Source: Fusobacterium sp.
GTDB taxonomy: Bacteria; Cyanobacteriota; Vampirovibrionia; Gastranaerophilales; Gastranaerophilaceae
Direction of reading: 5' to 3'
Length of the DNA stretch: 35,711 nt
Assembly: GCA_023662905.1 (NCBI GenBank)
Contig: JAMPIJ010000012.1
Coordinates: forward strand, 1 to 35,711
The notes below the pieces were generated by a model that was not told the DNA's origin, did no database searches, and saw only the letters and a program-made list of their open reading frames with translations. Below are positions 18,497-21,370 of the stretch, piece by piece; positions within the stretch are counted from its first letter, which is position 1, and each line of letters opens with the position of its first letter. Made by a program: the position numbers and the translations under genes.

Positions 18497-18520
18497 TTTG
18501 TTCTCAAATAGACTACATAC
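18497..18520 (+). promoter_or_regulatory. Shared element upstream of Xre regulator 1
   Basis: TTTGTTCTCAA, five bases, then CTACATAC, ending 30 bases before the ATG at 18551. The same element, with the same internal spacing, occurs 31 bases before the second Xre gene (19085-19108). The CTAC half sits where a -35 box would be relative to TATACC (18534-18539), so it may be an operator or an activator-dependent promoter. Confidence 0.6.
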
Positions 18521-18550
18521 ATTTTTACGAAAATATACCAAAATAGTTTT

Positions 18551-18784
18551 ATGACAAATAGGGCTACAAAACTAAAACTTCTAGGCAAAAATATTAGCAA
18601 ATACAGAAAACAGAAAGGCTATACTCAAAATAAACTCGGTGACTTATTAAACATGTCTAGAGAACACATAGCCAAAGTTGAAACAGCCAAAAGAAATCCT
18701 AGCCTAGACCTTATTTTTGAAATTGCAGAAACGCTTGAAATAAATGAAAGCGATTTATTTAATTTTAAAGACGGGACGAAGTAA
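18551..18784 (+). CDS. Xre-family HTH regulator 1
   Basis: A 77-aa single-domain Cro/CI-type DNA-binding protein. The five-helix fold covers about residues 8-70, with the helix-turn-helix around YTQNKLGDLLNMSREHIAKVE and the conserved RNPSLDLIFEIAETLE that follows. It is clearly paralogous to the 74-aa protein at 19140 and more distantly to the one at 31011. There is no Shine-Dalgarno site. A TATACC box 11 bases before the ATG predicts a very short leader. The last codons form part of the terminator hairpin. It is probably autoregulatory through the shared upstream element. Confidence 0.88.
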   Translation: MTNRATKLKLLGKNISKYRKQKGYTQNKLGDLLNMSREHIAKVETAKRNPSLDLIFEIAETLEINESDLFNFKDGTK

Positions 18785-18798
18785 TACTTCGTCCCGTC
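18770..18798. terminator. Bidirectional terminator overlapping the Xre 1 stop codon
   Basis: A perfect 13-bp stem GACGGGACGAAGT / ACTTCGTCCCGTC with a 3-base loop. Its left arm encodes the last residues of the regulator. The minus-strand gene at 18806 ends on the other side, where TTTAAAATT follows the stem. Confidence 0.85.
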
Positions 18799-18805
18799 TG
18801 CTTAA

Positions 18806-19048
18806 TTACCTACATAGATGGGTACTTTCCTGAAATTTATCCATAATCACATCAAATAATGTTGTATTTTCTTCCATTCGTTCAAAAAGAATCTCAATCA
18901 TATCTTCTATCTGATTAACAGTAATTTCATTCATATCATTTGACAAAGCATCGCGCAAAATGCTAAACGAATTAAAAACCTCTTTGTAACGCCATTTAAA
19001 TTCTGCTAACCTGTCCTCTAAGCTAGGTACATTTTCAGTTTTTTCCAT
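18806..19048 (-). CDS. 80-aa acidic helical protein between two Xre genes
   Basis: An 80-aa protein I do not recognise. It is rich in Glu, Met, Asp and Phe with a strong helical pattern (LAEFKWRYKEVFNSF; IEDMIEILFERMEEN), suggesting a small helical-bundle or dimerisation protein. It has no membrane segment. AAAGGAGAG precedes the ATG at 19048. It lies antisense between two paralogous regulators, so it could be an accessory partner or a regulated target, but nothing in the sequence shows which. Confidence 0.7.
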   Translation of the reverse strand: MEKTENVPSLEDRLAEFKWRYKEVFNSFSILRDALSNDMNEITVNQIEDMIEILFERMEENTTLFDVIMDKFQESTHLCR

Positions 19049-19084
19049 TTTTACTCTCCTTTATTAGTTTAACAAATGCAGCCT

Positions 19085-19108
19085 TTTGTTCTCAATGTGG
19101 CTACAGAC
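19085..19108 (+). promoter_or_regulatory. Shared element upstream of Xre regulator 2
   Basis: TTTGTTCTCAA, five bases, then CTACAGAC, 31 bases before the ATG at 19140. It matches the element at 18497-18520 in sequence and position. TATAGCAAAATA downstream matches TATACCAAAATA before regulator 1. Confidence 0.6.
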
Positions 19109-19139
19109 AACAGGCATATTATATAGCAAAATATAAAAT

Positions 19140-19364
19140 ATGACAAGTGAGGCTACAAAAATCATCCTTTTGGGTAGAAATATAAAAAAATACAGAGAAC
19201 AAAAGGGCTATACACAAGACGAACTTGCGGAAATAATGAACAGTGATAGGAGCTATATTGGCAAACTTGAAACGGCAAACCGCAAGCCAGCTCTTAGATA
19301 CCTATTCAGGCTCGCCACCGCTTTAGAGGTCACTGAAAGCCAGTTGCTTGATTTTAACGAATAA
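19140..19364 (+). CDS. Xre-family HTH regulator 2
   Basis: A 74-aa single-domain Cro/CI-type regulator, paralogous to the protein at 18551 along its whole length (both begin MTxxATK and share QKGYTQ and the ETAxRxPxL segment). The helix-turn-helix lies around YTQDELAEIMNSDRSYIGKLE. It has no Shine-Dalgarno site, and a TATAGC box 12 bases before the ATG suggests a very short leader. It lies directly before the antisense promoter of the first hydrophobic-peptide locus. Whether it controls that locus is unknown. Confidence 0.87.
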   Translation: MTSEATKIILLGRNIKKYREQKGYTQDELAEIMNSDRSYIGKLETANRKPALRYLFRLATALEVTESQLLDFNE

Positions 19365-19388
19365 GAAATGATAATTAAGTAAGGCCAC

Positions 19389-19417
19389 TTGACAAAATCT
19401 TCAATATAATGAATAAT
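19389..19417 (+). promoter_or_regulatory. Antisense promoter of peptide locus A
   Basis: A consensus TTGACA (19389-19394), a 17-bp spacer and AATAAT (19412-19417). The sixth base after the -10 is followed by GTAGGGC at 19424, the predicted RNA 5' end. Locus B has the same -35, spacer length, -10 and distance on the opposite strand. Confidence 0.7.
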
Positions 19418-19423
19418 AAACAT

Positions 19424-19476
19424 GTAGGGCGCAGCTCTTAAAAAACTGCTTTTAAGAACTGCTCTTCACTCCCTAC
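19424..19476 (+). ncRNA. Predicted antisense RNA of peptide locus A
   Basis: A predicted plus-strand RNA starting at 19424 and complementary to the end of the peptide mRNA. It folds into GTAGGG / CCCTAC (19424-19429 with 19471-19476) enclosing GCAG / CTGC and TCTTAAAA / TTTTAAGA. TCTTCACT (19463-19470) is left unpaired next to CCCTAC. These two segments are complementary to the peptide mRNA's 5'-end heptamer (six of seven bases) and to its leader hairpin loop. The 3' end is uncertain, and a T5 run lies near 19493-19497. Confidence 0.6.
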
Positions 19477-19550
19477 AGAAACAACAAAGCAATTTTTAAA
19501 GCTGCAATCACTGCAATGATAGCAGCTTTTATTATTTGCAATTTTTCCAT
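19473..19550 (-). CDS. 25-aa hydrophobic peptide A (candidate type I toxin)
   Basis: Minus-strand ORF of 25 codons from the ATG at 19550 to TAG at 19473. A ten-base GGAAAGGAGG ribosome binding site lies seven bases upstream. The peptide begins MEKLQIIKAAIIAV and ends ALKIALLFL: a charged start, then one membrane-length hydrophobic helix carrying two lysines. Twelve of its last 20 residues match peptide B at 19830. Size, composition and antisense arrangement fit a membrane-acting type I toxin. A signalling or regulatory microprotein is the alternative. The stop codon lies in the GTAGGG that pairs with the mRNA 3' end. Confidence 0.75.
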   Translation of the reverse strand: MEKLQIIKAAIIAVIAALKIALLFL

Positions 19551-19570
19551 AGACTAACCTCCTTTCCGAC

Positions 19571-19588
19571 CAATTTCTTCACTAATTG
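19571..19588 (-). other. Leader hairpin of peptide mRNA A with repeat loop
   Basis: In the mRNA, CAATT / AATTG closes an 8-base loop AGTGAAGA. The same eight bases recur immediately after GTAGGG at the stop codon (19463-19470), so the antisense RNA carries their complement. Confidence 0.6.
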
Positions 19589-19617
19589 AGTGTGCCGGAG
19601 GAAGTTATGTGACTTCT

Positions 19618-19624
19618 GCCCTAC
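19618..19624 (-). repeat. 5'-end heptamer of peptide mRNA A
   Basis: GTAGGGC on the minus strand, about five bases after the predicted transcription start. It is the exact complement of the mRNA 3' end at 19424-19430, and it is identical to the first seven bases predicted for the antisense RNA. Confidence 0.65.
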
Positions 19625-19635
19625 AAATTCAGCTT

Positions 19636-19641
19636 ATTATA
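19636..19641 (-). promoter_or_regulatory. -10 box of peptide mRNA A
   Basis: A perfect TATAAT on the minus strand. Transcription would start near 19629. No convincing -35 is visible at 15-18 bp. Confidence 0.5.
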
Positions 19642-19721
19642 AAATTTGTATTAGGCAACTTTATTAAGTTTGATACTTATTTACATAGCACTTAAAATTC
19701 GAATGTCACAACTTTTAGATT

Positions 19722-19750
19722 TTGATTAAATTATATTTTTCCTCTATAAT
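19722..19750 (+). promoter_or_regulatory. Promoter of peptide mRNA B
   Basis: TTGATT (19722-19727), a 17-bp spacer and a perfect TATAAT (19745-19750). The expected start, seven bases after the -10, is 19757, the first base of GCAGGGT. Confidence 0.65.
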
Positions 19751-19756
19751 AGAAAC

Positions 19757-19763
19757 GCAGGGT
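19757..19763 (+). repeat. 5'-end heptamer of peptide mRNA B
   Basis: GCAGGGT at the predicted transcription start. It is the exact complement of ACCCTGC at 19950-19956 near the mRNA 3' end, and it is identical to the first seven bases predicted for the antisense RNA. A 5-bp stem AAGTA / TACTT follows at 19764-19776. Confidence 0.65.
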
Positions 19764-19789
19764 AAGTACAATACTTCCGCCATCACACA

Positions 19790-19808
19790 CGATTATACGC
19801 AGAAATCG
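19790..19808 (+). other. Leader hairpin of peptide mRNA B with repeat loop
   Basis: CGATT / AATCG closes the loop ATACGCAGA, with CCATC / GATGG able to extend the stem next to the ribosome binding site. TACGCAGAAA (19796-19805) recurs immediately after GTAGGG at the stop codon (19907-19916). Confidence 0.6.
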
Positions 19809-19829
19809 GATGGAAAGGAGGTATTTGCT

Positions 19830-19904
19830 ATGACAAGGCAGTTAATTAAAATCGCCATCACGGCAATGATAGCGATTTTAAAAATTATTCTGATTCTGTT
19901 GTAG
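19830..19904 (+). CDS. 24-aa hydrophobic peptide B (candidate type I toxin)
   Basis: ORF of 24 codons from the ATG at 19830 to TAG at 19902-19904. GGAAAGGAGG (19812-19821) lies eight bases upstream, the same ten bases as before peptide A. The peptide begins MTRQLIKIAITAM and ends ILKIILILL: a short basic start followed by one hydrophobic helix with two lysines. It is paralogous to peptide A. A longer in-frame reading from 19722 is possible, but it would put the ribosome binding site inside the frame and start upstream of the predicted RNA, so the short form is preferred. Confidence 0.75.
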   Translation: MTRQLIKIAITAMIAILKIILILL

Positions 19905-19956
19905 GGTACGCAGAAACCTTTAACTAAAGTCACAAATGTTAGAGGTTTCACCCTGC
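19901..19956 (+). other. 3' stem-loop of peptide mRNA B
   Basis: GTAGGGT (19901-19907, containing the stop codon) can pair with ACCCTGC (19950-19956) through one G-U pair. Inside lies GAAACCTTTAAC / GTTAGAGGTTTC (19913-19924 with 19938-19949), with one mismatch. The 5' heptamer GCAGGGT pairs with the same ACCCTGC without any wobble, so the 3' end has two competing partners. Confidence 0.6.
19907..19956 (-). ncRNA. Predicted antisense RNA of peptide locus B
   Basis: A predicted minus-strand RNA starting at 19956 with GCAGGGT and running towards the stop codon of peptide B. It contains the complements of TACGCAGAAA and GTAGGGT next to each other, so it could pair with both the leader loop and the 5' end of the mRNA. 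Its 3' end is not defined. Confidence 0.55.
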
Positions 19957-19962
19957 ATTTAT

Positions 19963-19991
19963 ATTATTTACGATTTTAATATTATTGTCAA
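19963..19991 (-). promoter_or_regulatory. Antisense promoter of peptide locus B
   Basis: Minus-strand TTGACA (19986-19991), a 17-bp spacer and AATAAT (19963-19968), then six bases to GCAGGGT at 19956. The geometry is identical to the antisense promoter of locus A. Confidence 0.7.
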
Positions 19992-19999
19992 GTAGTCTA

Positions 20000-21370
20000 T
20001 TATATCTCGCCTTGGAACGCTAGTTCTTTTTCGATTTTTTCCTTAACCTTGAATTCTTTGTCTTCTCTGAGGATTCTGGTTGCGACCATGATTGCCGGCG
20101 CGAGAACACCAAGGGCAAAAATACAAGATCCCATGTTCTTCCAGACTGATGCTCTTTTTAATTTCTTCACACCGCCAAGGAATTTTTCCAGACTTTCACC
20201 GGATTTCTCGTATTGTCCGTGAAGCTTTTCAAGCTTATTCGCAACACCCTTGAACTCATCAATATCAATATACGCTCTTGTGTCGACGACATCTGCGTTA
20301 TCAAGTTTGCCCATCATGCCGGTTCTTCTTGCGAGTTTCACGAACAAGTTTTCGTTTGAACCCTTTGTTTTCACGATGTCGGATTTTTTCGCCATTTTTA
20401 CAATGAAATTATCAGGGTTCTTGTTGATGAACTCATAAACTTCGACGTCGGTTTTGCAGTTAGCGAATTCGTCAATACTTTTCTTCAATGAGTTGTCGTG
20501 GAACGCTTTTTTCAACTCGTCGCTTTCGATTACTCTTGCGTCCAAATCGATTGATTTGTTGTGCTTAGTTTCAGCGGATTTTTCGAGGTGGTTTTGAATT
20601 TTCTGGCCTGCGTAATACATAAATACCCAGAAGCTTCCCTCTTTGATACCGTAGCCGAGGAAATCCTGCATGTTTCTTGAGGTAAGAAGTCTTTCGCCAG
20701 AAATCGCGCCGTCCAAAATCATCAGGTTTTTAACAGGGCTGAACATAAAGTCAGAAATTCCGCCTTTGAACGCAACTTGCTCTCTGTTTTCATCATTCTT
20801 AACGGAAACACCTTTGAACGCCTCAGGTTTTGGCGCAACAGGTGTGAAGGTAGTATTTGCCTGTTGTTTTTGTTTGTGTTCAGCGATAATCTTTTTCTTA
20901 ATGCTCTCTTCGGTAAACTTATGTCTGTAATGCGTGAGTGCGCCGTAAGTTCCGATAGTCATAAGCGTTGAAACAGCAAATTTGGCAAACGTCAAACCTT
21001 TGAAAGTTTTTTGATTTTTGCCGACTTTTTCAAACGCAGCTTTAACATTATCGTTATGCGCAAATTCTTTTGCTTTCTCAAAAATATCTTTGTTTTTCAA
21101 AACTCTAACGTCGATTTTCGGGTCATAGCCCATAGTTTTGAACATCACAAAATCGAGTAGTTTTTTGTAACCCGGAATACCGAAAAGCCATAGAGCCTGT
21201 GTTCCGAATTCATCAATAAATCTGTCTTGTCCCTCTTCTTCTTTACCTACAACATAAGAGCCAGCGGTCAAACCAACGCTGTTAGCGACGTCTTTAATGG
21301 CGAGCGGTACGAGGGAATTGTTATTTCCTAGTATAGAGTAAACTTTACTTGCTGTTATTACGGGTATCAT
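20000..21370 (-). CDS. Unrecognised 456-aa protein with recurrent AFKG-type motifs
   Basis: A 456-aa protein I cannot assign. Hydrophobic stretches lie at about residues 85-105 (GIPGYKKLLDFVMFKTMG), 150-165 and 425-440 (FALGVLAPAIMVATRIL), so it is probably membrane-associated. The rest is charged and helical. A short motif appears three times in disordered-looking parts: EAFKGVSV and VAFKGGIS near the middle, and LAFQGEI at the C terminus. The ATG at 21370 has AAGGA six bases upstream. The leader is long and holds a 33-codon ORF and an 11-bp inverted repeat. It may belong to the same lineage-specific class as the 171-aa and 569-aa proteins. Confidence 0.78.
   Translation of the reverse strand: MIPVITASKVYSILGNNNSLVPLAIKDVANSVGLTAGSYVVGKEEEGQDRFIDEFGTQALWLFGIPGYKKLLDFVMFKTMGYDPKIDVRVLKNKDIFEKAKEFAHNDNVKAAFEKVGKNQKTFKGLTFAKFAVSTLMTIGTYGALTHYRHKFTEESIKKKIIAEHKQKQQANTTFTPVAPKPEAFKGVSVKNDENREQVAFKGGISDFMFSPVKNLMILDGAISGERLLTSRNMQDFLGYGIKEGSFWVFMYYAGQKIQNHLEKSAETKHNKSIDLDARVIESDELKKAFHDNSLKKSIDEFANCKTDVEVYEFINKNPDNFIVKMAKKSDIVKTKGSNENLFVKLARRTGMMGKLDNADVVDTRAYIDIDEFKGVANKLEKLHGQYEKSGESLEKFLGGVKKLKRASVWKNMGSCIFALGVLAPAIMVATRILREDKEFKVKEKIEKELAFQGEI

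Follow-up and report, generated by a model that had tools for sequence, protein, structure and literature searches.

Two divergent modules in the window

The window, which is the whole stretch of 35,711 nucleotides analyzed here and stems from a Candidatus Gastranaerophilales genome, harbors a pair of divergent modules of ~235 bp each, flanked by a gene for an XRE-type HTH protein (19140-19364) and a gene encoding a protein of 456 amino acids (20000-21370). Both modules contain an open reading frame (ORF) for a hydrophobic peptide of 24 or 25 amino acids and, on the opposite strand just past its 3' end, the promoter sequence TTGACA-17-AATAAT. A first-pass annotation had described two paralogous peptides, a ten-base ribosome binding site common to both and convergent antisense promoters, and all of this was reproduced: a direct count gave 12 identical residues among the 20 C-terminal ones, the same Shine-Dalgarno (SD) sequence lies 5' of both ORFs, and the reported interval starts and ends exactly with the antisense promoters. 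The features are, by position:

19140-19364, + strand: XRE-type HTH gene, stops 25 bp short of the module; context, not core (profile match, neighbor survey)
19389-19417, + strand: antisense promoter of copy 1, TTGACA-17-AATAAT (sequence)
19424-19540, + strand: antisense transcript of copy 1, ~117 nt (predicted)
19424-19476, - strand: 3' terminator hairpin of mRNA 1, GUAGGG...CCCUAC, then U-rich (predicted fold)
19473-19550, - strand: peptide 1, 25 amino acids, MEKLQIIKAAIIAVIAALKIALLFL, candidate toxin (ORF)
19498-19529, + strand: terminator-like hairpin of antisense RNA 1, then a U-rich tail, within peptide gene 1 (predicted)
19558-19567, - strand: SD of copy 1, GGAAAGGAGG (sequence)
19600-19624, - strand: 5' end of mRNA 1, GUAGGGC (pairs with 3' GCCCUAC), and anti-SD CUUCC (predicted fold)
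19722-19750, + strand: sense promoter of copy 2, TTGATT-17-TATAAT (sequence)
19757-19778, + strand: 5' end of mRNA 2, GCAGGGU (pairs with 3' ACCCUGC), and anti-SD ACUUCC (predicted fold)
19812-19821, + strand: SD of copy 2, GGAAAGGAGG (sequence)
19830-19904, + strand: peptide 2, 24 amino acids, MTRQLIKIAITAMIAILKIILILL, candidate toxin (ORF)
19845-19957, - strand: antisense transcript of copy 2 (predicted)
19851-19876, no strand assigned: hairpin within peptide gene 2, which reads as the antisense terminator on the - strand, with TTTAATTAA after it (predicted)
19901-19956, + strand: 3' terminator hairpin of mRNA 2 (predicted fold)
19963-19991, - strand: antisense promoter of copy 2, TTGACA-17-AATAAT (sequence)

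Predicted RNA folds and covariation

The predicted mRNAs fold with z = -4.9 (copy 1) and z = -6.7 (copy 2) relative to dinucleotide shuffles. In both predicted folds, the two mRNA ends pair with each other, the SD is masked by a CUUCC upstream, and the peptide ORF holds a stem-loop of its own. The two copies of the window covary directly in the 5'/3' pairing (GUAGGGC/GCCCUAC versus GCAGGGU/ACCCUGC). Among homologous copies of the same peptide type (type A, see below), the duplex formed by a copy's own ends has a mean of -9.18 kcal/mol, compared with -7.87 (standard deviation, 0.18) with ends swapped among copies, and none of 200 permutations was as low; for type E, 3 of 200 were. Across the alignment, 93.6% of cells were paired, with double changes in 71 cells versus 26 after shuffling and 3 to 20 after sliding, which supports the predicted folds. 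The ORF hairpin (helices 4 and 5) is 97 to 98% paired, with both sides changed in 6 of 10 pairs; this covariation supports an antisense terminator within the peptide gene. A GUAGGG-like hexamer, present at the 5' ends of both predicted RNAs, is the sole shared repeat. Since the antisense RNA would start with the hexamer of the mRNA, we infer that it competes with the mRNA 5' end for the mRNA 3' end.

A dispersed family with several peptide types

A blastn search with the 618-bp pair matched 20 of 59 related genomes, often at several places. Using a covariance model of 232 positions built from the homologues (R1), we detected copies in 53 of 97 genomes from the window's family, covering 29 of 41 genera, with up to 14 in one genome. 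Together with the mRNA fold z-scores, this shows that the pair in the window is not a chance pattern. R1 matched 70 of 194 genomes drawn across the class, 68 of them in the same family, and in a phylum-wide draw all 68 matching genomes (of 244) fell within the Gastranaerophilaceae. The two class-wide outliers belong to another family of the class and score only weakly with R1; they show the same plan, with peptides like MDTIEVLKLLIILLLVCKL followed by a convergent TTGACA-17-CACAAT-like promoter (read by eye). Named records with copies are Candidatus Gastranaerophilales, including Candidatus Gastranaerophilus phascolarctosicola Zag_221.

The search of Gastranaerophilales genomes that the first-pass annotation had proposed thus extended its two loci, which do stand as two copies at this site, to a dispersed family of 153 distinct copies. 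It had named relatives that keep the DNA and break the peptide frames as evidence against its reading, and this pattern was not seen: the short ORF is kept in 142 of the 153 copies, which have an SD and an ORF of 17 to 36 amino acids at the same distance to the antisense promoter, and no ORF is recognizable in the other 11. Visual sorting of the peptides gave at least six types, which are unrelated in sequence and all hydrophobic:

Type A (window): M-xx-IIK-A-I-x-V-I-A-x-L-K
Type B: MVDKIIMLLLAFAIAVIALKL
Type C: MIFAxSEKALIILLLILLVLKLIH
Type D: MVEQIIKALVILELLAKLILAILQL
Type E: MDNFNISLLLIFLILYILKNGSYLNR
Type F: ...YKEKVPELELLELFLKS

All types share the antisense promoter and its spacing, and type E differs in its 5'-UTR hairpin. 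In-frame pN/pS values were 0.42 (E), 0.63 (A) and 0.66 (B); the test is not clean for type B, where the lowest value lies outside the coding frame (0.42 in frame 1 versus 0.66), probably because the gene also encodes the hairpin. The peptides are shorter than the size limits of annotation and are unannotated even in a deposited phage record.

Records titled Muribaculaceae and Brachyspira (L143, L201, L202 and L144) also hold copies and appear, from their sequence, to be mislabelled Gastranaerophilaceae. Horizontal transfer to these groups was rejected: the Brachyspira record holds 4 copies and an MnmE 72% identical to the window's, the Muribaculaceae record 13 copies and an MnmE 67% identical, and a genome of the same family gives 74% by this yardstick. 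Pattern matches in Bacilli, Clostridia, Sporosarcina and Wirthbacteria had no R1 match, or the promoter part only and no peptide, and were attributed to chance or ordinary promoters.

Antisense promoter and predicted terminator

The antisense promoter reaches 11 or 12 of 12 points in 135 of the 138 copies scored (shuffle mean, 7.4), a conservation that is partly by construction, as many of the scored copies were retrieved through the promoter motif. Therefore, a second, promoter-blind model (R2) was built from the part upstream of the antisense promoter, and 75 distinct matches from 39 searched genomes were read out. Of the 67 with an intact peptide, 66 retain an antisense promoter scoring 10 of 12 or better (background, about 7%), and the lone exception reads TTGTAT-16-TATAAT, i.e., has a perfect -10. 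Three of the eight matches without peptide also have no promoter (Fisher p = 0.003); put the other way, the peptide is lost in 3 of the 4 copies without antisense promoter. In one of these, a copy of genome G034, a deletion took out the -10, and the SD and start are gone as well.

A terminator-like hairpin with a U-rich tail is present on the antisense strand in 142 of 142 ORF-bearing copies, compared with 4 to 5% of shuffles. It lies within the ORF in types A to D and F and across the stop codon in type E. Its position predicts antisense RNAs of about 117 nt, or about 84 nt for one subfamily. Sense promoters are modestly above shuffles (9.1 versus 8.1 of 12), and that of copy 1 has no clear -35.

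Promoters of the antisense type were also seen elsewhere. At L065:951-1190 and L066:830-1056, one precedes a different conserved transcript with no recognizable peptide, which might be a decayed copy or a separate small RNA. Runs of at least 10 G, which may be phase-variable tracts, occur near pilin-like reading frames at L069:850-1088, L174:5100-5550 and L257:1000-1600, and two of these three sites adjoin such a promoter.

Sister species, neighboring genes and phages

Sister species G006 matches the window on either side of the modules, at 86% and 81% identity as far as the module borders at 19361 and 20001, and has a ParD/ParE pair in between instead (L256:1480-2008; PF03693, E = 7e-7; PF05016, E = 6e-13). 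ParD/ParE in place of the pair of modules suggests a toxin-antitoxin exchange site. In a second sister species, G001, the stretch 18506-19997 is absent, with neither module nor ParDE. Adjoining the pair in the window are two XRE/Cro-type HTH genes and a gene of unknown function encoding 80 amino acids (18550-18784, +; 18806-19048, -; 19140-19364, +), a block that is absent in G001 and retained in G006. An XRE gene lies next to about 15 of the 131 copies surveyed and in each case is oriented towards the module; it is enriched at this place yet not constant, and was thus rejected as a third component.

One complete copy is located between the tail and amidase genes of Dulem virus 31 (PP511318.1, 17880-18115; L342), and its peptide, MNNVTIKIAITVIIAILQIILHCL, is left unannotated in the deposited record. 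This virus is filed under Microviridae; it encodes a terminase, portal, tail sheath and CI repressor and therefore is a tailed phage. One IMG/VR contig carries two copies. No match was obtained in a scan of viral contigs with a 5'-UTR pattern or in a plasmid search for the module.

Relation to known systems

Two features of type I systems are present: a gene with a ribosome binding site for a hydrophobic peptide of fewer than 60 amino acids, and an antisense RNA gene overlapping the toxin mRNA (promoter and terminator conserved, transcript predicted). Searches with Pfam, NCBIfam, PHROGs, PADLOC and Rfam models gave no family matches (Rfam miRNA matches were dismissed as chance), the peptides have no Pfam match at E ≤ 10, and none of the solved structures searched matches. 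A search of the open literature, with subscription journals and T1TAdb outside its range, found no paper tying type I toxin-antitoxin systems to this lineage. These results and the restriction of R1 to the lineage bear out the earlier suggestion of an undescribed family.

The first-pass annotation had further proposed that the loci work like Fst/RNA II of pAD1 par, which comprises a small hydrophobic peptide, convergent promoters, a sequestered SD and mRNA 5' end and a short antisense RNA (PMC7472228). This anatomy is shared, and both systems occur on chromosomes and mobile elements (PMC7472228). In contrast to the common bidirectional terminator of Fst, there are two separate terminators here, and the antisense RNA would end inside the peptide gene; its predicted length is 84 to 117 nt, compared with ~40 to 66 in Fst. 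The expected direct repeats reduce to the hexamer at the two RNA 5' ends, with no DRa/DRb pair. As had been claimed, the peptides are unlike Fst: they have neither the PXXXG of Fst/Ldr nor a charged C terminus after a conserved Trp, and the proline/glycine motif is absent from all A-, B-, C- and D-type peptides. On these defining features, the modules are not members of Fst/Ldr.

AapA/IsoA of Helicobacter pylori has peptides of ~30 amino acids, several chromosomal copies and an antisense RNA of ~80 nt over the ORF, and its full-length mRNA is closed by a 5'-3' long-distance interaction (PMC6733600). Such closure is found here as well, by prediction and end-swap covariation. However, the IsoA promoter lies within the aapA ORF and points upstream, whereas here it lies past the mRNA terminator, which separates the modules from AapA/IsoA; moreover, the antisense terminator is inside the ORF here, and the peptides are unrelated by eye. 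In bsrG/SR4, txpA/RatA and yonT/SR6 of Bacillus and sprG/SprF of Staphylococcus, a convergent downstream promoter likewise yields an antisense RNA overlapping the 3' part of the mRNA (PMC8309996), but their toxins are longer, with no sequence similarity found to the new peptides, and we found no description there of a 5'-3' hexamer chassis or an ORF-embedded antisense terminator. The one candidate type I system reported from the same phylum (sensu GTDB), msoT1/msoA1 of Microcystis aeruginosa (PMC12390103, 2025), differs in its putative toxins of 39 to 81 amino acids and its photosynthetic cyanobacterial host, and R1 had no match outside the Gastranaerophilaceae in the phylum-wide draw.

Interpretation

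Judged from the sequences, each copy very probably is a self-contained type I toxin-antitoxin module of a new family. The many dispersed palindromic copies, their presence or absence between sister species and their occurrence on phages would also fit a selfish miniature mobile or repetitive element (MITE/REP-like), in which the palindromes and the promoter are what spreads and the short ORFs are accidental. This is quite improbable given that frame, SD, start and stop are retained in 142 of 153 copies of unrelated sequence, that the NFN type shows codon-position bias and a pN/pS of 0.42, that promoter and ORF are lost together, and that direct reading of a comparable empty site revealed neither a target-site duplication nor a terminal repeat.

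The hydrophobic peptides and the position of the phage copy near tail and lysis genes could instead point to a small membrane peptide that serves a different function, as a holin-like lysis aid, signal peptide or stress regulator, and whose dose is set by the antisense RNA without addiction. We regard this as unlikely, as the chassis matches type I toxins feature by feature, the pair is swapped with ParDE at one site, and copies are spread among unrelated genes. A leader-peptide attenuator or cis-regulatory RNA for an adjoining gene, which a short ORF with hairpins and the XRE gene often next door might suggest, is hardly conceivable: neighbors vary by copy, XRE adjacency is limited to the minority given above, the mRNA has its own terminator, and the two copies of the window point apart.

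For the type I module, we infer transcription, translation, toxicity, duplex decay and biological role from what is computed, i.e., anatomy, folds, covariation, conservation and the co-retention of peptide and antisense promoter. The sense promoter would yield an mRNA of ~200 nt for a hydrophobic, probably membrane-inserting peptide of ~24 amino acids. Fresh mRNA would be closed, with its GUAGGG-like 5' end paired to the CCCUAC-like 3' end and the upstream CUUCC on the SD. From the strong, constitutive-looking promoter past the mRNA terminator, the antisense RNA (~117 nt, or about 84 nt in one subfamily) would open with the mRNA's hexamer, followed by one stem-loop that is the complement of the mRNA terminator and, at its end, a second one encoded within the toxin gene. 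Its pairing with the 3' half of the mRNA would block translation or trigger decay; once it is exhausted, the peptide would be made and damage the membrane. The module may serve element stabilization or a phage or stress response.

There is perhaps an even chance that a single RNA chassis, combining a closed mRNA with a fixed antisense promoter and an antisense terminator in the toxin gene, has acquired at least six hydrophobic peptides unrelated to each other, has multiplied to about 14 copies per genome throughout the Gastranaerophilaceae and moves on phages, with toxin and antitoxin terminator being the same DNA on opposite strands. The family would extend type I systems to an entire lineage of common gut bacteria and, more tentatively, to another order of the class. 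Its about 150 distinct copies are enough for a comparative study of the coevolution of toxin and antitoxin RNAs, and it would be under a double constraint, as the hairpin ending the antitoxin RNA would also be the code for a membrane peptide.
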